Source: Paralichthys olivaceus
Lineage: Eukaryota; Chordata; Actinopteri; Pleuronectiformes; Paralichthyidae
Reading direction: 5' to 3'
NCBI RefSeq assembly: GCF_024713975.1
Contig: NC_091104.1
Location: 13,101,580 to 13,165,579, forward strand
Length of the DNA: 64,000 nucleotides
Positions 3,946 to 58,258 of this stretch are shown in pieces (the first letter of the stretch is position 1; every line of letters starts with the position of its first letter). The notes beneath the pieces were generated by a model. That model had not been told where the DNA came from, did not search any database, and worked only from the letters and a program-made list of their open reading frames with translations. The translations under genes and the position numbers were made by a program.

Positions 3946-4314
3946 TACAGATATGGAATACACGAACGAAATGTAAAAGTGTTAATCAGGCTGCTTTCAG
4001 ACATGTGCTGAGATCTGGACATTGTCCAGAAATGTGCCTGTGTGGGCTGTATGTCAGAACGCAAATCTCAGAGTCAGTTGATCGAGACATTTTCCAAAAT
4101 ATCCTAGCCAGCCATGTTGTGACAGATTTAACGATACAGAGTATATCCATCCCTTCAGAAGAAAGCAAATATTATATTAGAATATCATATTTTCCAAAAT
4201 CTCAAACTATTCGAATAGATGTGTTTCATCTGTTACTGATGATCTTGACACACTGGTAAGCACAGGACTGATATTTGAGATGGGATTCACTTTCATTCTC
4301 CACTCGCATCAAAA

Positions 4315-4317
4315 CAC

Positions 4318-4349
<32 letters not shown>
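4315..4349. repeat. (CA)n microsatellite
   Basis: CA dinucleotide run with one CG interruption near its 5' end. Confidence 0.9.
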
Positions 4350-5144
4350 GTCTATAAAGTGTGAAAATGTGCACTGTTGAAATTGCTTCTGTCTAATTAG
4401 ATTTTGCAGAAGCTTCCATCACAAGAAGCTAATCCCTCTCATCCTTTTTTTTCTTTTCTAATTTGTTTTGATCTCACATTTGACGGAGATTACACACGGC
4501 CTGATGTGTGTGACTCATATGATGTTTCAACTGAGAAATATTGTAGATCTTATTATTATTCTACGGGCTCTTGTTTATTCAAACAATATCATTAATCAGA
4601 CAGACCATAATAGTATGCACTCCACATCACTGTTTTCACTTCACAAACATGCTATAAGTATCATACCTTAATTGGATGTCCCTATATGCTCTCGTTAGGC
4701 TCCATCCATAGAAAAGTAGTGAGAGCCGGAATAAAGATTTGAATCCCTGCAGTATAATTATGGATAATTTGTCACTATTATAATTGTTTTACATGGTTCA
4801 TGACGCTGTTAATAAATGCAGATCATTTACATACACATGAAGTGATTAGTATAATAGACTGAGCCTCAAACAATCAGATAGTCGTCATTCAGGATGTGAA
4901 GACAGACAGAGTAACTCACCACAGGACGCCTCTCACAACCTGATTAAATGAGAATCAAGCAACAGTGTCAAATATGGAGCCTATTGTGAAAAATGTTCCC
5001 TGTTTTGGGGAAATCACTGTTTAAAAACTGTGACAAAAACATTACAGAATCCTAACAGCTTGATTACAAAATGAATTGTCCAGTAAAACCCTCAGATCTG
5101 ATGTTTGGTCATGATGTCGGGCTTTGGCTCATTTATCTTTGCAG

Positions 5145-14576: not shown

Positions 14577-14627
14577 ATGTCCCGTTGCTCGGCTCTAATG
14601 CGGTTTGACCACACACGTCTCCACTGA
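14577..14627 (+). other. Upstream ORF in the cnr1 leader
   Basis: The first three bases of the cnr1 coding exon are ATG, opening a 16-codon frame with a second in-frame ATG at 14598 that ends TGA at 14625-14627. The cnr1 start at 14653 follows 25 nt later in another frame. If the acceptor at 14576 is used, this uORF is in every mRNA made from that exon. Confidence 0.5.
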
Positions 14628-14652
14628 GCATCTCTGCAGCTACAAACCAGTC

Positions 14653-16083
14653 ATGAAGTTGGCTTTGCACAGGATAGCAGGCACCACCATGAGCACGTTA
14701 ACAACAGGTGTCCAGTATCTCGGCTCCAACGACGCCAGCTATGACGACCCCTCCCTTGACTCGACCCTGATCAAGAGCAAGTTCCACTTTGAGAAACCTC
14801 AACCCGCCTCCATCGGCCACTCGCTCTCTGGACTTGTCTCTGGAAATAAGGAGGTCCTCTACAGAGGTCTCTCTGCCATCTTCCCCACCAACGTATCAGA
14901 CCTTTTACCTGCTAATGGCACGTCTGTGGATAGCGGTGGAGCGGCACAGTGTGGAGAGGACTTTGCCGATAACATGGAGTGCTTTATGATTTTGACTCCT
15001 GGTCAGCAGCTCGCTGTCGCCATCTTGGCACTCACCCTGGGCACGTTCACGGTGCTGGAGAACCTCATGGTGCTGTGCGTGATCCTGCACTCTCAGACGC
15101 TCCGGTCGCGGCCTTCATACCACTTCATAGCCAGTCTGGCTGTGGCTGATCTGATCGGAAGCATCATTTTTGTCTACAGCTTCCTGGATTTCCATGTGCT
15201 CCACAGGAAGGACAGCCCCAATATCTTCCTCTTCAAGCTGGCAGGGGTCATCGCCTCCTTCACCGCCTCTGTAGGAAGTTTGTTTCTCACCGCAATCGAC
15301 CGATACATTTCCATCCACAGGCCCATGTCGTACAAGCGCATTGTCACAAAGACTAAAGCAATCGTTGCCTTCAGTATGATGTGGATGATCTCCATTGTCA
15401 TCTCGCTGCTGCCGCTGCTGGGCTGGAACTGCAAGCGTCTCAACTCCGTCTGCTCTCACATCTTCCCTCTCATCGACAAGAAGTACCTTATGTTCTGGAT
15501 CAGCATGACGACCATCTTGGTGCTGTTCATCATCTACGCCTACATGTTCATCCTCTGGAAGTCCCACCACCACGCTGTCCGCATGCTGAGCCGCAGCTCT
15601 CAGAGGAGTGTGATTGTCTACACCGCGGAGGGGACGAAAGTTCAGACAATGAGGCCCGAGCAAGCCCGCATGGACCTCCGCCTGGCCAAAACCCTGGTTC
15701 TTATCCTGGTGGCCCTCATCATCTGCTGGGGCCCGCTGCTCACCATCATGGTCTACGACCTCTTTGGGAAGGTGAACGACTTCATCAAGACCGTGTTTGC
15801 CTTTTGCAGCATGCTGTGCCTGCTCAACTCCACCATCAACCCTGTAATCTACGCCATGAGGAGCAAGGACCTGCGCAGGGCCTTCCTCAACATCTGCCAT
15901 ATGTGCTGGGGAGCGACGCAGCCCCTGGACAACAGCGCTGAGAGCGACTGGAACAGCAGGAGCATGAGAGGCACAGCAGGCGGGGCGGGGAAAGATGGAG
16001 CCGGCTGTGGAAACACCCAAGTGAAAGTAGCCCGGGTTACTGTTTCTGGAGTGACGGAGGCTCACACTGCAGAGGCTGTTTGA
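14653..16083 (+). CDS. cnr1: Cannabinoid receptor type 1 (CB1), class A GPCR
   Basis: A 476-aa seven-helix receptor for endocannabinoids. In vertebrates it couples mainly to Gi/o at presynaptic membranes and dampens transmitter release. The start at [12 protein letters not shown] is the first in-frame ATG after an upstream stop, and it aligns with the human start MKSILDGLADTT. Visible hallmarks: the long extracellular N-terminus with NVS and NGT glycosylation sites; helix 1 from about residue 119; a D-R-Y motif at 216-218; the CWGP motif of helix 6 at 358-361; NPVIY of helix 7 at 396-400; and a cytoplasmic tail ending TAEAV. Numbering runs about three residues ahead of human CB1 (472 aa). All coding sequence is in one exon, as in other CB1 genes. 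Some fish have two CB1 genes, and I cannot tell from this window which copy this is. A polyadenylation-like AATAAA sits at 16117-16122, but CB1 3' UTRs are usually long. Confidence 0.97.
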
Positions 16084-29250: not shown

Positions 29251-32200
29251 CTATGATCCACTGTAAAGCCACTTTTTAATCATGACCATGGGCTTCATGT
29301 CTTGTAGCTGCTTTAGCAAAAGATCAGCACCGTCTGAAAATGTTTTATCCATGACTATCTTGACATTGTTTACGGATTTTAGATTTAGTGGATTTCTGAA
29401 GTCTACGAGATTTTCACAGCCTCTAAATTCATCAGTTATTCTACTCTTCATTGCAGATCTCTGTTTGTGAGTTTGCTGTCTTTTGGACGGCAGCTCGGCA
29501 CCAGGTTTGTCACTTGATTTCCGTTTGGAAGAGTGGGTTGACTCTGAAGTTTCCAAGAACTTAAGGAAGGAGTCCTCAAGTCCTAAAGGCTTGAAAGACC
29601 CTGACATAACCACATCGTCATGTTGTTCTTGGGCTGTGGGGGTACCAGGATTTGAGTTCTCTCTTGAACTGTTAACAGTCAAACGATTCCTAAGGGTCTG
29701 CATCCTCTCCGGACAGGCTGGTGTTGGACGTGCAGGTTTTCTGGGACGGCCTCTTTTCGCTCCGCCTTCTGTCCCAGTGGAAGCTTGAGATTCTGCACTA
29801 TCGTCGTTGGAAAGCTTGCTGTCTTCTTGGCTTGATCTGTCCACCAGCTCATCTGTTTTCTCGTCACTGGGCTTTTCCGCCTCTTCTGGCTCCGTCTCCT
29901 CAGAGGACGAACTTGATGCGCCCTCTGATTTATTTGCGTCTTTGAATCTGGCGCGTGAGTACTTTTTGCAGAAAATGAACTGACTCCTCTGGTCTTCGAT
30001 GTATCTCTCTGTGAGGCCATGAGTGGTGTAATGCTTAAATATATTCCTCTCCGCCCGCTCAACTGCATCACAGCCTATGATCATGCACGGGTACTGCAGC
30101 GCGGACTTCTTGGTGCACATAGCTGATGCCTCCTCGTGTGATTTTAGTGTTGGTTTACCGAAACTAGTCCAATGTTCAATGGACTTCCCTTCTTTCTTTT
30201 TAGAGTTTTTCTTCTTCATTTTGAATTTGTTTTCTACATTCTCTTTCCCATTAACCTCTGGGAAAAGACCTAATGATTTAGTCCTTCTTCCGTCACTTGT
30301 TTTGGGATCATAAACATATTCATGCTTTTTGATCAGGTGGCGGAGGAGGTTTGATTTTGTAGTGTAAATGCGATCGCATCCATCATATTCGCACCTGAAA
30401 GTTGGATCAACTGAGCCGCTCTCAGAGATGGCGATTTCCTTGTGGTAATTCTTAATGTGCTCGATGTACTTTTCCACAGAGGTGAAGGGCAGATCGCACT
30501 CTGGCCGGTCACAGTTAAAAGTCGCTATGGTCATGCTGGCCATCATGGCCGTAGCTTTGTCTCGGGTGAACTTGTGAAGTAAGAGGTAATGCTGCACTAA
30601 CCGTGTGATTCCCATGAACACCCTAGAGCAGTTTTTCACTTGACACCTGACTTCATTGTCTTTTCCTATGCTCGGACTGCTCTCTTGGCCATTGTCAACA
30701 CTGGTCTTTTCAGGCTCAGTCTCTGGTTTGGTGACGGGCAGCGATGCCTGATGCATGGCTCTGTAATGGAGAATCAGATTTTGCTGAATGGTGAACGCAG
30801 CGGTGCATCCTTCGTGGACACAGCGATATGGTCTATATGGACTGTACGCGTCTGTTGTCTCACACATTTTGAGGCTCAGCTTTTTCTGAAGTTTCTCTTT
30901 CCTCTGGGCTTCGTCCTTAGTTGGTGTGTTTTTGGAGCTGCTGGGTTTCTCTGGGGAGGAAGAGGCAGATGCAGTGGGAGAGCTGGACTTTGGCTCTCTC
31001 ACTTTGCTCAATGCTGGATCAAATTTTCCTCGCTGCTCCTTTGCTTTGCCAAGTGGACTGAGTTTCTCTTTTAAATTAGATTTATGTTTCACATCTGGAC
31101 TCTGGTTTACAGCGGCCACTTTAAGTTGCTCTGGGGTATGTTCAGGGACTGGTGCCACCTCGCTGAAGGATCCCTCGTTCAAATAGTCCTGAGGTGATGG
31201 CAGTCTTGTAACCGTTAACACATCAGGTGTGACGCCCTCTTTTACTGCAACTCCTGGTGAAGTGATGTGATGAACTTCAGGATAGTTTTCACTGTCTATT
31301 TGAGGTGCAATTGCAATGTCAAGCGGCTCCTGTTTAATAGCAGGTATTATGGGTGCAGACTGTGACGTGGAGCTGGTGTTGGCATCAGTGGTTGCGCAGC
31401 TACCTATGGCATCATCTTTGTTAATTCTAAATACACGCCTGTTTCGAGCACTGATCTTCAGCTTCTGCATTTCTGTCTTTGACAATCGATGGACTTTTTC
31501 ATAGTGAATTCTCAACCCTGTGGTTCTGGTGAACGTTTTGGGGCAAATCTGACAAGGGTACGGAGACAGTTTGGATGGTGTTCTTTTAAGTTCCTCTATC
31601 ATTTCATTTGAGTAATCGTGCATTTTACACAAGTGTTTGAATAGCGCCTCCTTTGTCATGAAGGAACACTCACAATCTTCCTGGTCACATTTAAAAGGTT
31701 TTGGCATCTTTTCAGGGGGCTTGTCATCACTTTTACTCAGGATTTTACTTTTTTCTCTGTCAGCGGCTTTGTCACAATGGCTGACTTTTTGCTCTGAGGA
31801 CAGTGCATTCCGCATCTTCTCTTGAGCAGCCTCAATCAAATCCAACCTTTGAAAGGCATGTGAGATTTCCATCAGGTGATCCTCTTGATAAGGTACAGCG
31901 AGGGCTGGATTAGTCATCTCTGCAGCCTTCTCTTGCTGGTTTTCAGGGGGGAAGGAGTTGGAGTACTCCATTATATTTGTAGTTTGGGGCTCCTGTTTCA
32001 ACACTATAGGTGAAGTCAAAGTTGTCAAGCTACAGGATTCCTGTGAGAAATCCCCATTGTTATATGTTGCTCCATTAGTGTCAGGGACATGCGGGTCATT
32101 GAGGAAATCAAGAAATGAAGTGGGCAGATCAGCCGTCAGGTCGATCTCATCTACGGGTCTGCACTGCGAGCGTTTCGACAGGTGACCTCCAAGAGATTTG

Positions 32201-35200
32201 GTGCTGGAGAACTCCCTAAAGCATCTCCTGCAAATGACTTTGCCATCCTTGATGATAGCAGGCCATTTGGTTCGCTTGCTCAACCTGCTGCGCTTTCCTT
32301 TCTGCGTGTCGGGGTCGCTGCTCTTTTCGTCTGCTGGTAGGACATCACATTCAGCACTAGGACAGTCCTCATCGTAAGGGAAATCTGTGTTGATGACACT
32401 CTGTGGACTGAGCATGCCATCCCCAGAATTGTCCATCTGATCATAACCAGGGGTTGATATATTCTCTTTTTTAACAATGTCAAGTGTGGGTTTTAATGCA
32501 ACCTGGGCCTCTGGGCTGAGACATTTCATGGGAATACTGACTGATGAACTTTGAGCATGACATGAGTTTTCACTCTGAGCATATGGAGTGTGGTAACTTC
32601 CTTCTGAGAGGCTGTCAATTGTTGAGATACTATTTCCGTTATCTAACTGTGCTGTCAAACTTGCACTGGTTTTCCTCATATCTACAGTGTCTCCGCTACC
32701 TTCAGGATGCATGAGTCCATACTGATTCCCTCCGTTATGCATTTGCCCTCCGTTATCAAGCATCAGAGAACTAGACACATACTGAGACATCAAACTGGAA
32801 TCTGAAGGAGCCTGTGACATAGTGGGACCAATATTAGCTGCCATTGACTGATCTCTATCAGACGGAATTGATGCTGTGGTCTGATAAGGGTCTGCCTGCC
32901 ACTGAGGATAGCTGCGGGCGGGGTAGTCATTCATGTTAAAGCCGTCTGGATAGCAGTTATTCACAGGAGGTGAAGACCATGACTGGGACATGTCGGACTG
33001 CATCATTCCACTGGGATTGTTTGAGCTCCCCCATGATGGGTACAGTGTGGGGTTCACCATTGGAGTGATTGGCACAGGCTCCATTGATCCAGGATAACAT
33101 TGGGCAGGTGACGTTGAACATCCCACTGGGTAATCCATTTGCTGCATCGTGGGTTTATTGCATAGTACTCCTGGCTGGTTTGACGGCCTGTTTCCCAGGT
33201 TCTGAGACATGTTTGGTGAAGCTGGTCCACTTGGGATCTTTTTTGCTGTGATTTTGGCCACTTTGTTATATTTCTTTGCCAACTTCCAGTCTTCAAATAT
33301 TTGAGGGTGTTGCTTCTTCACATGCCTAGAAAGACTTTTGTTGGTACTATACGCCCTTGTGCATTCACTATATGGGCAGCAATGCAGGTTCTCCTCACTG
33401 CTGGCAGTAACAACAGGAGTGCTGGAAGGATATCCCTGCAGCGAGCTGGGAATTTCTGTCTTGATTTGACTCGGAGAAATGATCTGTGGTATCGCTTTTG
33501 GTAATTCATTACCTTGTACATTATTATTGTGACCCTCTCCCTGCTGACATGCCACAGGGTTTGCTGCAGCGGGGACAGGATATTCAGAAGGAATCTCACC
33601 TTCGCCTGGCACCTTTTGTTGTACACATGGAGCCTCCGGTGGAAGTTTTGCATCAGCTGGTGCTGTGTGAGGTTTTGTCAGCGGAGTGAAGCATTTCTCT
33701 GGTTCTTTCATTTCATAATCCGCCACCTGATTCAGCATACTTTCGATGGAGTGTTTCACTCTAACAGGAGTGGCATCATTACTGACCTCTGGTGATCTGC
33801 ACGGTGATGCGTTTGCATTTGATGGTTCCTTCACGTAAGCTTCTGCGCTAATCCTTTCAAGGCAAACAACAGCCGAACATGCGTCTTCTTTGCTCGGAGT
33901 GCTCTGTGGGGACGATTGCACGTTTGGAGTGACAGGCGTGTTTTGATTTGTGACAGGTATATTGTTCATTGTGTCATTTGTACAATGATTCTCTTGGTGC
34001 GACAAGAACTGAGACTGTGAGTAAAATATTTTCCCACAGTTGTCTGTTTGGCAGGTGTAGGTAAGATAATGCTGAGCCTCATGATCATACAACAAATACG
34101 CCTCATTGAAAACTTTGCCACAGTTAGGGAACATGCACTGAGCCTTAAATTCTGGGTGAGTTTTTCTATGCATGAGGAGCTCAGAGTTGGAGTTAAAGTT
34201 GGCCTTACAATCCAACTGTATGCAGATGTATGGTTTGCTGCCACAGTGCATCTGCAAATGATCATTAAGATGTCTGACATTAACAAACTGGCGTCTGCAG
34301 TACTGGCACACCACTTTCTGTTTTTGTATCTCTAAAAATCTCATGGCCTCCTCGTCATCCTTGTGAGATCTTACGTGAGCCATGAGGTTACGGAAAAACT
34401 TGAAAGCCTTGGAACAGTTTTTGACGGGACAGAAACAGTCTTGACTTATCTGCGTGTCAGATGTAGTTTGTTCTAACTTAACAGGAGATGCCAATTGGTC
34501 CCCAACATGAGAGTCAATTTTAACAGGACTCATGCTTGTCTTGGCGGCAACCTTTGAGTTTTTTGCTGGACTTTTAGGGGACTGAGGTGTTTTGGTTACC
34601 TTTCTTGCGGCTTTCATTGCAGCGAGTCTCTCTTTACAAGACTGCTTTACATGCGATGCTACATGTGGCTCTAGAACCTCCCTACTTTCAAAACTGTCAG
34701 CACAAATCGGACACAGGTACACTCCATCTTTGAAATGCTTCTGAGCGTGGCGAACAATTCTGTGACCCAGGAACTCCTTATCACACAAAACACAATACTG
34801 CATGTAGGCTCGCCAGTTTCTGAAGCGAGCCGACACAAAACCCTGCTCCCGAAGTTTTTTAGCCTCTCGGTTTTTCTCTCTTTCATCTGTGATTTCATTG
34901 AGTTCATTTGTAGTGGTTAACAGGAAATCCTCCAGGTCTCTGTATTCAGGGAGCTTGCCAAGTGCACTTTCCACTTCTTGTTCGTCTGTGTCATTAAGTG
35001 TGTCAATAGATGACACAATAGCTGCCTCCTCTCCCATCAGTGCCAAGCAGTTGCGTTTCAGTGTTTTCCAGTCCAAGAACTCTGGATCAAAAGGCCACTG
35101 TGTCTTCAAGGCCAGCAGTAACTCGCAGCGTAAAGAGTTGGGTACGCGTAGACTCCCATCCTCTTCTGGCTTTTGGTCGGGTTCGTTGTACAGTGACTCC

Positions 35201-38200
35201 ACAGCATAATAAGAGTCGACGGTAGGCTGGAGGAGGAACTCTGTCAGCTGGCATGCACGCTTAACCTCTAGATCGGTTGGCAAGATGCAAGAAATAGTCT
35301 TGCAGATGGTAGACTTGCTGTCCTTATGGTCACTGGAGGTCATTTTCAGAGCTTGAATGCACATTTCCACACACACTGGAAGCCCCACCTCTCCAACCTA
35401 TAGGAAAAAGAATGTAACATGAATGCAACAAGTAAGATTTTACGGGCATGTTAAAAGAAGCAGCCGACTATGTCGCTGAGAGTAGTGACGTCTCTGTCTT
35501 ACTTGAAGTTCCAGTGTGTGAGATTTAGGTGAAAGGGAACTATTGGTAGAAATTTAATGTTGAATAATCCTCATGATGTTTCCACTGGTTTGTTTCATCT
35601 AAATTGTATGAATTGTAGCTGTAACTGTTCTTTACCTCAGAAAAGGCCCTTTATATTTAAATACTTAAATATTTACATCGAGGGTACCCTCTCTACAGAG
35701 GCAGCCATGTTTTTTACAGTAGTCCAGACTGGACAAACTCTACAACTTTTGAGTTTTTTATGACAACTGAAGCTACCACAGGTTCTTTTTCATGTTTGGA
35801 AGGAGAGGGTGAGGTGAGGGGTATTCAGCTGCAACAAGCACTTTCAACACTAGATGTCACTAAATTCTACACACTGTACCTTTAAATCTACAAATGTGGA
35901 GACTATTTTCTTACCTCATTTTGGATGACTTTGATGAGAAACAGAATGTGACAGACACTTCTGCAAAGAAGAGCCATCTCTTTGCCTTGCCCGAGAAAAG
36001 TCTCAGCAGATGACTCTGAACGCATGAGAAGCTTACTCCAGAACAGTGTGAGTTCCCTGGAAAACATCACAAACATAAAAACCTTTAGAAACTTTATCAA
36101 AAATGATTTTGTGATTAGTGATTTGGTCTATAAAATATTAAAATATGCAATGAAATATTCCATCACAATTAAATCCCAATTCCTTATATCTTCTTTGTAG
36201 GAAGAATAACCCAAAACCACAAAATATTAAATTAACTATAATATCTTCTCATCATCTTACAACCTGGAACCTTCTATTGTCTTCCTAAATAGCCTAAATG
36301 ACTGTTGTAGCTCTATTTCAGATGAAAAAGTTAATGTGTCCAGGTTACAGATCACCACAAATCTAAAAGAGCACTCTTCTGTTTTAACCAGACAGTTGCT
36401 GATACAAAAAAGTCAAGTGTTTGAGACAGCAAGTCATTTATATCCTCACTAATTCAGAGATTCACTCTGGGCCAATCTTCACACAAATATTAGACACTGA
36501 GATATATTCAAATTTACAGAGAGCAGGAGGAGATCTTTCTGCACATATTTATCACAGAGATCGCTTTGATTTGGAAAAACAAATGTGTGCCAGGACGACT
36601 GTATTACCAAGTGTTCTAATAACAAATGTGTGACCAACACTTACCAGGCACAGTAAACTTCTCCTTGAAGGAGCTGTCGCTTGAGAAAAGCAGAACATAA
36701 GCAGAGAGCTCCTTTCTCGTCTCCCTCTGACTCCAAGTTGCAGATCATTTCAAGAGCATCTTTACAGTCTATTGATGCAATCTATGAGAGAAAGAGAGAA
36801 GAAAAACATTTCACAATACTGTTGGGACATCTTATTAATAACCATCTGAGAGTACTGAGTGATCAGTGAGTGTTGGTTGTGAGATTTGGCAAATAATCGT
36901 CCGTTTTTAGTGAAACAGAATATTTGTTTGAATTAATTGGTTAATTTAAAACAATTATATCAAACAAATGACTTTTTGAAATTTAGGATCACGCATCGAT
37001 CAGTTGTTCAAATGTTAAACTTGATGTCTCTGAGTTGCTGTGTCGTTTCTTCACCTCTTCCATTAGCTGCTCCTGATTCTTTGTCATGCAGACACAAAGC
37101 AAGTAGGTTTGTTTGAAGTTCCCTTTTCCTTCATATCCCGGATACTCTGAGCACATCTTTGCAAGGACAGCAGCCTTATCAATGCTGTCCACTTTGATTA
37201 GGTGCTTTATTCGCATGTTCAGCAGCGTGGGACCTTCCAACTCAAGATACTCGTGAACTAAGGGACAGATAGTGGAGAAGACAGAAACAAGATCTGAGAA
37301 ACGAAAGAGGCAAGACACACTAAACTATTTAAATTTCATTAAATTACAACACGAAAAATTAGTTTGGTGCATCTTCAAGGCCCATATGCATCTTAGGAAG
37401 TGAGAACTAACCTTGCTCTGTTTGAGGGTTTTGATTGGATAGGATGCCGCTAAGCGTGGTGTTGGACCAGACGCCATCCTGCTGTGCCAGAACTGCGAGC
37501 AGGCGAAGCTGTGTGCTCCCACTTTCTTGCAAAAGGCTGTGTGCCAACTGCAGCATGAGACAAATAGATATGTAGTTACAGAATTACTAAGGTGTCAGTG
37601 ACAATTACTTAAAATATCACAGCATTCATGAGTCGGAAATCATTTTTACAGCAGGTTTACTGAAGTGAATTTGCATCAAATAAGTTGCAAGTCATTCTTA
37701 TACAGTAAAGAGGACATACAGACCCCTATATTTCAACCAATGTGTTTTTATTACCTCAACACTGAGACAAACCATATCCACGCTAATTACTAAACAACAT
37801 TTCTTTGCTTATCACTGGAAAGATAAGCCTCAGAGAAGTGTGCTTACAGCGGCCGGGATACTGACCTTCATGGAGGACTGAAACTCCTCCCATAAGGCAC
37901 CAGGGACATGGTGGGGCAGTAAGAGCAGCAGCTCCGCACAGCTCCTGTGAATCCAACACGGTCGTTTGTTAAAGCCACATATGGGTCAAGGATACACACT
38001 TCACGAAGTTAGGGGAACCATGCAAAAATAGATGCTGCACTGTAGAGTCAATATAAAAGAGGATGATGAACAGGAGAAATGGGGGGTTAGAAATCATCAA
38101 CAGCGGGAGTGATACACATATGTTAAATTAGATCTCTCAGTGTTGGTATGAGTTCAATATTAAATAGCTATTACAGTTAGAAATCCTGTTAGTAATGAAG

Positions 38201-53558: not shown

Positions 53559-56500
53559 ATGGCCACAGAACATATTAATGGAAATGGTCCAGAAGAACCA
53601 ATGGACACCTCTGCTGCAGTTACCCATTCTGAGCACTTCCAGACTTTATTAGAAGCTGGTTTACCACAGAAAGTTGCTGAAAAACTAGATGAAATTTACA
53701 TAGCAGGTAAGGCACAATGAATATACTTGCATATTGAAATATGCAAATTTTTGTTTATCAATTTCTTGCATGTACTGTCATTTATCACCTTTTTGAATGG
53801 GGGAATTGGGATCCTGAAGCAACTTTTTGTGGTTTCCTACCAAAATGGGTACTGCAGTGCTACAAAATATTAAATTACACATTCCTAGTGAAAATGTGTA
53901 CATGATTGCAGCATTTGCATTCCCAACATGGTTGCATGATCACTGGTGTCAGGGTGAATGAATTGTCATTAAGTTTCTTGGTGAGCCTGTCCAATCTCTG
54001 TTAATTTCTATGTAATTTCCTCACATCCCATACAATTACTGCAGACGGATGAATAGATGTAATTATGATCTCAGTGACAGCCTGCTTTTACCAGATCTTA
54101 AGAAGTTTGTGTAGAGACGAGCTCCAGGGCCAAACATTCGGGGGGTCATTTTAGGACTTGTTTGGTCGGTCAGATCTAGAAAAGTACTAGTCTGGCCTTT
54201 TCAGCCAGATGGGACCGAGGCAGGAACAATGGCAGCAGCTGTCTGGTGTGTGGCTGCCTGGGACAGGTGACGGCCCCTCCACAGAGGAGAATGCAGCCCG
54301 GCTCATTAGAAACTCTTAGCCACAGTGTAGAGTGCAGTGGCGTATCAAGTTGCACTGTCACATCTGTTGTGATTAGTTCTGCAAAGACATGCTGTTTGGA
54401 GAGTAAAGTGCACCCTGACTACTGAACATAACTTTGATTTGGCTTGTCCCCCTCCTCTCCTCAATGTAGTTTATATGTATCCATTACTTTTTTATTAAAT
54501 AAGACATAACACTAAGTGGCTCCCTTGTAATTTAAAAAAATCCTTTAGTTGTACTCTATTTTCTGTCTTTGAATGACTCTTACTGTACCTCATCATTTCT
54601 CCCTTTGCATTTGTCTCTCTTCCTCCAGGTTTGGTGTCACACAGTGACTTAGATGATCGAGCGATTGAGGCTCTGAAAGAGTTCAACGAGGAAGGTGCTC
54701 TGCAAGTCCTTTTGCAATTCAAGGACAGCGACCTCTCACATGTTCAGGTATGCATGTAGAACTGCTGTGTTGTTTGGTTCACTTCTGATGCTGTGATACA
54801 AAGTGGTGTAATGACCTACAAGATGGACTTATTCTTTTTGTGTTGAACAGATAATGTGATCGTAATTATGATTATTATTGTTTGATCATACTTTCTTTTC
54901 TTTTCAGAACAAAAGTGCCTTTCTTTGTGGCGTGATGAAGACGTACAGACAGAGAGAGAAACAAGGGACCAAAGTCTCAGACACCAATAAAGGACCAGAT
55001 GAAGCCAAAATCAAAGTGAGAACTGATATAGAATCTTATGTTGTGCTTTACATGTGTGAATGCTGAAGCAGTTTGAATATAGAACACATTTTTAATTAAA
55101 CATTATCCTTTTAAATTCGCCATGTTTTTTTTACGTCAGGCTTTGCTGGAGAGAACTAGCTACACGCTTGATGTGACAACAGGCCAGAGGAAGTATGGGG
55201 GTCCTCCACCAGAGTCCGCCCACTCAGGGGCGCAGCCCACCATTGGTACAGAGGTACAAAATAACCTTACTTAACACTTGTCAATCACTCCACTTCTTTT
55301 AACTTTGTTGGTTGTTAATCCTTTTCAAATGATGGTGTCCAAATGATGAAACTTGAATATCTTCTGTAGTGACCATGGTTACACTGATAGTTTACCGCTA
55401 AGAGCTGACTGGATACCCTTTACCTAAATGCAGTCCTTCTCTTGTCTTAACATTTCAGATGAAGGAGTTTATTTCATGCACCATTATTTTTGCTCTCAAC
55501 CTTATAGATATTTGTAGGCAAAATCCCCAGAGACCTTTTTGAGGATGAGCTGGTTCCACTGTTTGAGAAAGCTGGCCCCATCTGGGACCTGCGCCTGATG
55601 ATGGATCCTCTCAGTGGCCTGAACAGAGGCTATGCCTTTGTCACTTTCTGCACTAAAGAAGCTGCACAGCAGGCTGTCAAATTGGTACGTTTACATGACT
55701 GTTATTATTCCCAGAAAGGGAGAGGGTCTGATGGAGTTTGGTAAAAACACACATCGGGTAAAATTACGTCAAGAAAACAAAGTTTTTTTTATCACTTAAT
55801 GTGCTAATGACATTTATATCCATAAAGAGTGTGAAATAGCAAGTACATCAAGTTGGTATAGGCTCCATTGTTCACTCCTCTGCTTTTTTTTTTAACCATT
55901 ACTTAAACTATCCTCCATCTTTCCACAGTGCAACAACAATGAAATCCGACCGGGTAAACATATCGGCGTGTGCATCTCTGTGGCCAATAATAGACTGTTC
56001 GTTGGCTCCATCCCCAAGAGTAAAACAAAAGAGCAGATTGTTGAAGAATTTGCAAAAGTTACAGGTAAGTCAGTGCCATCCTTAGATTTTCATGATTTGT
56101 TAAACATCATCATACCCACAATAAAGATTAGGTTCATTCTACGTTCAAGATTTGTTATGCAAGAATCAGTGGGTGATGCTTTGTGAATGTCCAAATGATG
56201 AACTTCTTACAATCCCAGAGTAACTTATGTTACTATGACGATTTACCGCTAAGATCTGACTGGACACTAGATGTAGCTGAGCTTGTTTTTCACCCTCGTG
56301 GTTAGGTATCTGATGAAGGGATAACTTGGTCTTAATTTCTCCATGTCTGATTACCACTATGAAACCACTTTGTTCATTAGTTTTTTATTCAAACCTTTAA
56401 TTTCACAGTTTATCTTAAATTGTGTCAATAGTTTGTTGGTAGGTTATTGATGTGAATTGATTTTAATCAGTGATGCCACTTAACCACCTTCTGTTGTTTT

Positions 56501-58258
56501 TTTTCTCCACCCATCTCTTTCTGTTTCCAGAGGGTCTAAATGATGTCATATTGTACCACCAGCCAGATGATAAGAAGAAGAATAGAGGCTTTTGCTTCCT
56601 GGAGTATGAAGACCACAAGACGGCAGCTCAGGCTCGTCGCCGTCTGATGAGTGGCAAGGTGAAGGTGTGGGGAAATGTGGTCACTGTAGAATGGGCTGAC
56701 CCTATCGAGGATCCGGATCCAGAGGTCATGGCCAAGGTAAGGCACAAGGCTGGGGTCATCAGTTGCTGTTCAGTGTGTAAGTGGCCAACATAAGTTTTCT
56801 GTCACCTAAACCTGAACCATGTTGTTCTTGTCCCAGGTCAAGGTGCTGTTTGTGAGGAACCTAGCAAGCACTGTTACAGAGGAGATACTTGAAAAGACCT
56901 TCAGTCAATTTGGCAAGTTGGAGCGGGTGAAAAAATTGAAAGACTATGCCTTCATCCACTTCGAGGAAAGAGATGGTGCTGTGAAGGTATGACAGTCTTT
57001 GCAAAGACACTAATGTTTCTGACCTAAACTTGTCATTGCTGTGAGATTGATCCTAGAATCTTGTCTTTTGAAATTGCCAGGCGTTGGCTGATCTCCACGA
57101 AAAAGTACTTGAAGGAGAGCGCATCGAAATTGTCTTCGCCAAACCCCCTGACCAGAAGAGGAAAGAGCGTAAAGCCCAGAGACAAGCTGCCAAAACACAG
57201 ATGTAAGCTTGAACAATGCAACCCGAATCTATGACCTTTTAGATATGCTGTTAGCAAATTTATATGTTGATATAAAGCAAGAAGCCATATTCATGTCGAG
57301 CCTGTGTATCTCCCCAGGTATGATGAATACTATTACTATGGGCCTCCCCACATGCCACCACCCACAAGAGGCAGAGGCCGAGGAGGGCGAGGAGGTTATT
57401 CTTACCCTCCAGATTATTATGGCTATGAAGACTACTATGATTACTATGGATACGATTACCACAACTACCGGGGTGGCTACGATGACCCGTACTATGGCTA
57501 CGAGGACTTCCAAGGGTCCGGCAGAGGACGAGGAGCAAGGGGTGGAGTCCGTGGAGGTGCCAGTCAGACCAGAGGCCGCGGTGCTGTCACAGCGAGGGGC
57601 CGTCTGGGCTTCTCCCAGCGAGGAGGCCCTGGAACAAGCAGAGGTAAATGAAATTAGTTTTAAAGTGTGACTAATAAAGCTTGATTTTTCTGTTCCAGGT
57701 AATTACTGTTAATTAGGGAAAGAAGTTGTTAAATGGCTTGTTCAGTCAGTGGTTTTTAGAAGTCTTGAAAAGTGATTGCTGTGCTCAGTCTCTGTATATT
57801 TCCAATGCTGAGTGTCAGTTATCAGAGAACAAAGTTCAGGGGAAAGACAGAGCGCTGTAGTAAATGAAAGCAGCTCTAGTTAAGGAAAGGAATATATTGA
57901 TTATGTTGAAATGATCCTACAAAATATCAGAAACCTGTACAAAAAATACTCACGTTGCCATTAAAAAAAGATACGCCTGCTTATATGCATCATAACTAAT
58001 CCCTGACAGGTGTCAACTTTCAGACCAGCTTGTCAACTTGTTGCTGCCAGCAGAGCAAGGTCATTCACAGCATACTATGTTTTTAAGGACAGTTGAATCA
58101 CTCCAGTAGTTGAATGCTGGCTTTAGTCTTCATTTTGTCTAATTTCATTAAATTGCTAGCATGCTGATTAATGGAGAATGCATATGGATCCCTCCATACT
58201 AATTTTATATTTCCTCTCGTTGGTCCCAGCAGGGAAACGGGGTCGAGGGCGGTCCTGA
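53559..58258 (+). CDS. syncrip: hnRNP Q (SYNCRIP), RNA-binding protein
   Basis: A 543-aa RNA-binding protein of mRNP granules, acting in mRNA transport, translation and stability. Coding exons: 53559-53706, 54629-54747, 54908-55015, 55140-55253, 55508-55684, 55929-56064, 56531-56736, 56837-56986, 57081-57202, 57318-57643 and 58233-58258; total 1632 nt. The acidic N-terminal domain ([25 protein letters not shown]) spans about residues 1-160. RRM1 starts at 164 ([15 protein letters not shown]), RRM2 near 244 ([15 protein letters not shown]) and RRM3 near 339 ([14 protein letters not shown]). The C-terminus is an RGG and Tyr-Gly-rich tail ([20 protein letters not shown]). It ends GKRGRGRS, without the KRKADGYNQPDSKRRQ nuclear signal of the long human isoform (623 aa). 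If the last intron is retained, the protein instead ends SRGK at 57651. Introns 4 and 6 each contain a snoRNA-like element. Confidence 0.95.
55334..55417 (+). ncRNA. Candidate C/D-box snoRNA in syncrip intron 4
   Basis: An 84-nt element with C box ATGATGA at 55343-55349 and D box CTGA at 55405-55408. A perfect 8-bp terminal stem (one G-U pair) joins GGTGTCCA at 55334-55341 to TGGATACC at 55410-55417. In the middle, GTGACC-AT-GGTTAC forms a hairpin between possible D' (CTGT) and C' (TGATAG) boxes. The guide before the D box, TTTACCGCTAAGAG, is complementary for 11 nt (ACCGCTAAGAG) to CUCUUAGCGGU at 5.8S rRNA nucleotides 4-14. By the box D+5 rule it would direct 2'-O-methylation of U8. Intronic placement on the host's sense strand is the normal vertebrate layout. 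Confidence 0.75.
56188..56266 (+). ncRNA. Candidate C/D-box snoRNA in syncrip intron 6 (paralogue)
   Basis: A 79-nt relative of the element in intron 4. C box ATGATGA is at 56195-56201 and D box CTGA at 56256-56259. The terminal stem pairs TGTCCA at 56188-56193 with TGGACA at 56261-56266. The internal hairpin is GTAAC-TTAT-GTTAC, whose arms differ from the first copy but still pair. The guide is TTTACCGCTAAGAT, the same except for its last base. The stretch between C box and hairpin differs from the first copy, so any D' guide is different. Confidence 0.75.
57673..57678 (+). terminator. syncrip: Intronic AATAAA after the alternative syncrip stop
   Basis: AATAAA begins 22 nt after the TGA that ends the unspliced form of exon 10. 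It could serve a short isoform made by intronic polyadenylation. The downstream GT-rich element was not assessed. Confidence 0.3.

Follow-up and report, generated by a model that had tools for sequence, protein, structure and literature searches.

Two introns of a syncrip gene in the window (the whole 64-kb stretch of DNA that was analysed) carry what are probably two new intronic box C/D snoRNAs with an unusual target, termed snoRNA A and snoRNA B. The boxes, the terminal stem, the duplication and a 15-bp match to mammalian 5.8S rRNA in the right register were computed. The preferred reading, to which we give a probability of about 0.75, is that A and B are duplicated snoRNAs that bind the 5´ end of 5.8S rRNA and guide methylation of U8. 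A and B would be freed from the spliced syncrip introns, the guide 5´ of box D in each copy would base-pair to the start of 5.8S rRNA, and fibrillarin would methylate U8, the nucleotide opposite guide position −5 counted from box D. We infer that the fish 5.8S rRNA is the same as the mammalian one at the guide site, and that the two RNAs are transcribed, assembled into snoRNPs and active in U8 methylation.

Two C/D units in the introns of the host gene

A and B are ~80 nt each and lie on the sense strand of an hnRNP Q/R gene, with one C/D unit per intron. The distance from the end of box D to the 3´ splice site is 99 nt for A and 271 nt for B. The features, in window coordinates, are as follows.

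55254–55507, + strand: host intron of snoRNA A, 254 nt, immediately 5´ of the syncrip RRM1 exon
55334–55417, + strand: snoRNA A, whole C/D unit including the terminal stem
55334–55341 with 55410–55417, + strand: snoRNA A terminal stem, 8 bp, one G-U
55343–55349, + strand: snoRNA A box C (ATGATGA), exact
55364–55367, + strand: snoRNA A putative box D´ (CTGT), degenerate, assigned by eye
55369–55382, + strand: snoRNA A D´-C´ hairpin, 5 bp, one G-U
55384–55390, + strand: snoRNA A putative box C´ (CTGATAG), degenerate, read off the sequence
55390–55404, + strand: snoRNA A guide, antisense to 5.8S rRNA nt 4–18, 15 contiguous pairs, 3 G-U
55405–55408, + strand: snoRNA A box D (CTGA), exact
56065–56530, + strand: host intron of snoRNA B, 466 nt, within syncrip RRM2
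56188–56266, + strand: snoRNA B, whole C/D unit including the terminal stem
56188–56193 with 56261–56266, + strand: snoRNA B terminal stem, 6 bp, perfect, no G-U
56195–56201, + strand: snoRNA B box C (ATGATGA), exact
56216–56219, + strand: snoRNA B putative box D´ (CAGA), degenerate, assigned by eye
56220–56233, + strand: snoRNA B D´-C´ hairpin, 5 bp
56235–56241, + strand: snoRNA B putative box C´ (ATGACGA), degenerate, read off the sequence
56240–56254, + strand: snoRNA B guide, antisense to 5.8S rRNA nt 5–19, 15 contiguous pairs, 2 G-U
56256–56259, + strand: snoRNA B box D (CTGA), exact

The host exons, at ~54.9–57.7 kb of the window, encode a member of the hnRNP Q/R family (NCBIfam TIGR01648, 519.6 bits). 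Solved structures point both ways between Q and R: RRM2-3 best matches hnRNP Q, and the N-terminal part best matches hnRNP R. The window also contains a long ORF resembling a cannabinoid receptor (14605–16083, + strand) and a large one for a zinc-finger protein (29251–35388, − strand), which we take to be cnr1-like and znf292-like, respectively. CNR1 and ZNF292 lie near human SYNCRIP at 6q14-q15, which fits a syncrip identity of the host.

Both units contain RUGAUGA and a CUGA near a terminal stem, which strongly suggests that they are box C/D snoRNAs. When both strands were searched for RTGATGA and CTGA with a stem of 5 bp or more, counting G-U pairs, five matches were obtained, and the guide is common to A and B only. 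Its 13-nt core, TTTACCGCTAAGA, is identical in the two copies (55391–55403 in A and 56242–56254 in B). Local alignment of the two host introns gives a score of 32, compared with a mean of 12.1 (sd 1.6, maximum 23) for 1000 dinucleotide shuffles. Between box C and the guide the copies have largely diverged, whereas the boxes, the inner stem and the guide are unchanged. The original prediction of a paralogous C/D pair in syncrip introns, with both boxes, a terminal stem and a 13-nt guide in common, is therefore well supported by the boxes, stems, guide and intron alignment.

Two structural details of that prediction are revised. It had described the hairpin arms as changed together under selection on RNA structure; the 3´ arm, GTTAC, is in fact identical in A and B, and the 5´ arms differ by one base (GTGAC/GTAAC), exchanging a G-U for an A-U pair. 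Over the 11 pairs of the stems and hairpin, nine are invariant and two carry one-sided changes: one hairpin pair is G-U/A-U and one stem pair is G-U/G-C. None is altered on both sides, which rules out covariation as proof of RNA structure. The assignment of the perfect outer stem had been reversed: it is the 6 bp of B that are perfect, and the 8 bp of A include one G-U. Folded alone, B is more stable than its shuffles (z = −3.11; 1 of 200 as good). In contrast, 193 of 200 shuffles of A fold equally well or better (z = +1.42), and its minimum-energy fold differs from the C/D fold. Folding energy thus backs one copy only.

Predicted pairing of the guides with 5.8S rRNA

The 25 contigs (588 Mb) of this genome yielded no intact 5.8S 5´ end, only one truncated and one degenerate copy of 5.8S; the pairing was consequently assessed on the 155-nt mammalian sequence printed in PMC3834078. 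A search with the 5´ 22 nt at up to three mismatches returned one place, at three mismatches, versus one for the backward control. The truncated copy, on contig C8 (L007, 1501–1618), shares 97% identity with the mammalian 5.8S across query positions 49–155, which suggests that the fish 5.8S 5´ end may also be conserved. The degenerate copy lies on C19 (L008, 1501–1626). Public contigs yielded no eukaryotic 5.8S sequence (0 in viral_contigs and 0 in genome_contigs).

The guide of A pairs with the mammalian 5.8S from −1 to −15 relative to box D (15 pairs, 3 G-U) and that of B from −2 to −16 (15 pairs, 2 G-U). Both runs include the 13 nt that are identical between the copies, and both exceed the 10 complementary nt, ending beside box D or D´, that characterize a guide. 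Among the 740 CTGA sites that the window has on its two strands, runs starting from −1 to −3 reach 15 only in A and B, and the next-best run is 12 (one site). The duplex energies are −23.0 kcal/mol for A and −24.1 kcal/mol for B, with none of 2000 shuffled guides as good for either copy. In 7200-nt Markov-random targets, whose letters were modelled on provisional rRNA sequences, 14 contiguous pairs appeared in 13 of 3000 trials for A and 7 of 3000 for B. Given the mammalian sequence, these values argue strongly that the 5´ end of 5.8S rRNA, a target absent from the original prediction, is the likely one. At their outer ends the duplexes run into the putative C´ boxes. Compared with the mammalian sequence, the Rfam 5.8S consensus for eukaryotes as a whole has two differences within nt 4–18, one of which would break a pair.

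The remaining targets comprised provisional sequences of 18S, snRNAs and pieces of 28S (2912 letters, more than 2000 nt short of the whole 28S). The D´ guides have no convincing target in the 5.8S or in this set. Their longest runs are 11 pairs with 4 G-U for A (28S) and, for B, 12 pairs with 5 G-U (28S) and 10 pairs with 2 G-U (snRNA); none of these begins within 5 nt of the D´ box, and the shorter, nearer runs have at most 8 pairs. Since the D´ guides have also diverged, A and B probably work through the box D guide alone, and the two copies are probably redundant.

The 5.8S numbering was set so that the known Um14 is the U of GCGGU, with two nucleotides ahead of the printed sequence. Read from nt 4, this gives C4 U5 C6 U7 U8 A9 G10 C11 G12 G13 U14, which places U8 opposite guide position −5. 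By the D+5 rule, U8 is the nucleotide that A and B would have methylated. A site in Dictyostelium is apparently guided from +6, as was earlier found in zebrafish (PMC8817022), a precedent that makes A9 an alternative to U8.

The same duplexes might serve another end, with A and B acting as RNA chaperones on the 5´ end of 5.8S rRNA, in pre-rRNA folding or 5.8S-28S joining, and with little or no methylation. Together they span nt 4–19, a stretch that contains Um14, which lies at the 5.8S-28S junction (PMC12288042), and a duplex so long would occlude the region during processing. We regard the chaperone function as unlikely: A and B have the boxes and the guide register that are usual for snoRNAs guiding methylation, and no sequence feature calls for a role in processing.

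Known families and other places in the genome

No Rfam family matched the 64-kb window at gathering. At E up to 10, 12 matches were obtained over 55250–56350. A is matched by SNORD24 (24.2 bits, E 0.25) and, in a shifted position, SNORD78 (21.6 bits, E 0.5), and B by plasmodium_snoR24 (22.6 bits, E 4.9), snoZ101 (18.1 bits, E 4.3), snoR122 and SECIS_5. None of them appears in the window-wide scan at E up to 1. The Rfam C/D comparison proposed with the original prediction has accordingly given sub-threshold matches on both copies and none at gathering. Elsewhere in the window, a sub-threshold SCARNA7 match lies at 4274–4460 on the − strand (32.5 bits, E 0.00074, gathering 65), spanning little over half of the model length.

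Given this best match to A, the pair might be divergent relatives of SNORD24, with the SNORD24 region of 28S as their real target. In the provisional 28S pieces, that region also gives the longest runs outside 5.8S within the target set, with 12 pairs for A and 13 for B (3 G-U each); a second site in these pieces pairs with A over 11 nt (2 G-U), starting from −6. The match to A is ~17 bits below the gathering score of 41, B gave no SNORD24 match in the scan of 55250–56350 at E up to 10, and the 28S duplexes (−16.2 kcal/mol for A and −16.8 kcal/mol for B) are ~6–7 kcal/mol weaker than those with 5.8S. In the provisional 28S sequence, moreover, the methylated position would be two nucleotides off that of SNORD24. 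Membership of SNORD24 (RF00069) is excluded by the score and the weaker duplex, and a SNORD24-like role in 28S methylation appears very improbable.

The genome was also searched for further copies of the guide. RTGATGA followed after 36–60 nt by ACCGCTAAGA occurs in three places: A, B and a site on C19 that has no box D. These two syncrip introns are thus the only places found in this genome where ACCGCTAAGA stands intact between an exact C box and a D box. With up to one mismatch, YYYACCGCTAAGANCTGA occurs in eight places. Apart from A and B these are six sites, of which five lack a C box (up to one mismatch) 36–110 nt upstream; the sixth has two C boxes with stems of at most 2 bp. A covariance model built from A and B, applied to 82,842 bases (the window and six loci, some overlapping), recovered A, B and one match with E 2.4. 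It matched neither the locus of a syncrip-like paralogue on C19 nor that of an hnRNP R-like gene on C20 (3.1–3.2 kb searched in each). These two genes were told apart by their translations, using family signatures. The exact-core, one-mismatch and model searches are all of a kind that would miss copies with a more diverged guide.

That A and/or B are non-expressed remnants or chance C/D look-alikes is suggested by the unremarkable predicted fold of A, but is barely credible given the retention of boxes, inner stem and guide across a diverged intervening stretch and a 5.8S match clear of the background at 740 CTGA sites.

A pattern search of this genome for a guide to Um14 returned three places, compared with one in the backward control. 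One of them, C19:20292292–20292337 on the − strand (L025), has TGATCCACCG-T-CTGA after GTGATGA in a register that fits 5.8S U14; it is without a clear terminal stem and has no Rfam match at E up to 5. It is possibly the Um14 guide of this fish, as a weak lead. The SNORD71 model found no match in the genome, and its control was equally silent.

Lineage and relation to known snoRNAs

Under the preferred reading of A and B as U8 guides, the modification would join a short list, as few 2´-O-methyls are mapped in 5.8S rRNA. Human 5.8S carries Um14 (SNORD71) and Gm75 (SNORD96A/B) (PMC5597630), and two sites are given for Xenopus laevis (PMC8797249). Three are given for zebrafish in a review (PMC8393311), which leaves room for a fish site. 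Um8 is a candidate for the extra zebrafish site reported there, although that third site may differ from U8. Our literature search returned no Um8 in 5.8S with a snoRNA guide and no small nucleolar RNA in teleost syncrip; either may have been mentioned before in the zebrafish map of Ramachandran et al. 2020.

The original prediction had also suggested that the pair is a fish-lineage addition. The main text of a chicken snoRNA survey contains no mention of 'syncrip' or 'hnrnp', with which this guess is compatible. A tentative extension, which we consider possible at somewhat less than even chances, is that Um8 is a fish-only mark at the 5.8S-28S junction, that the pair arose or survived in one of two syncrip genes, that tetrapods have neither the guide nor the mark, and that this explains the third zebrafish site. 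If so, Um8 would be a lineage-specific ribosome modification, a second fish mark six nucleotides from Um14, with the guide genes already in hand. It would provide a clean test case for such modification at the junction, where Um14 itself sits and where its loss is reported to alter translation (PMC12288042).

Three known snoRNA systems invite comparison. Like A and B, SNORD50A/B are two C/D snoRNAs in introns at or near SYNCRIP; their host differs and is SNHG5, next to human SYNCRIP. The expectation that the new pair is unlike SNORD50A/B is borne out by the scans, which gave no SNORD50 match in the window at gathering or at E up to 1, or in 55250–56350 at E up to 10; the family is presumably present in the Rfam library. 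SNORD24 (U24) is the best sub-threshold match to A, and the guide of A and B can pair with its region of the provisional 28S sequence; it differs in the score deficit and weaker duplex noted above and in a shifted register. SNORD71 (HBII-239, RF00576), which is not among the 12 matches over 55250–56350 at E up to 10, resembles A and B as a box C/D snoRNA directed at the same 5´ end of 5.8S rRNA. According to the chicken survey, the chicken homolog is hosted by AP1G1 and has a 13-nt 5´ antisense element, which we read as a D´ guide, targeting U14. In contrast to SNORD71, which is aimed at U14, A and B use a box D guide, and the register from box D would direct them to U8.
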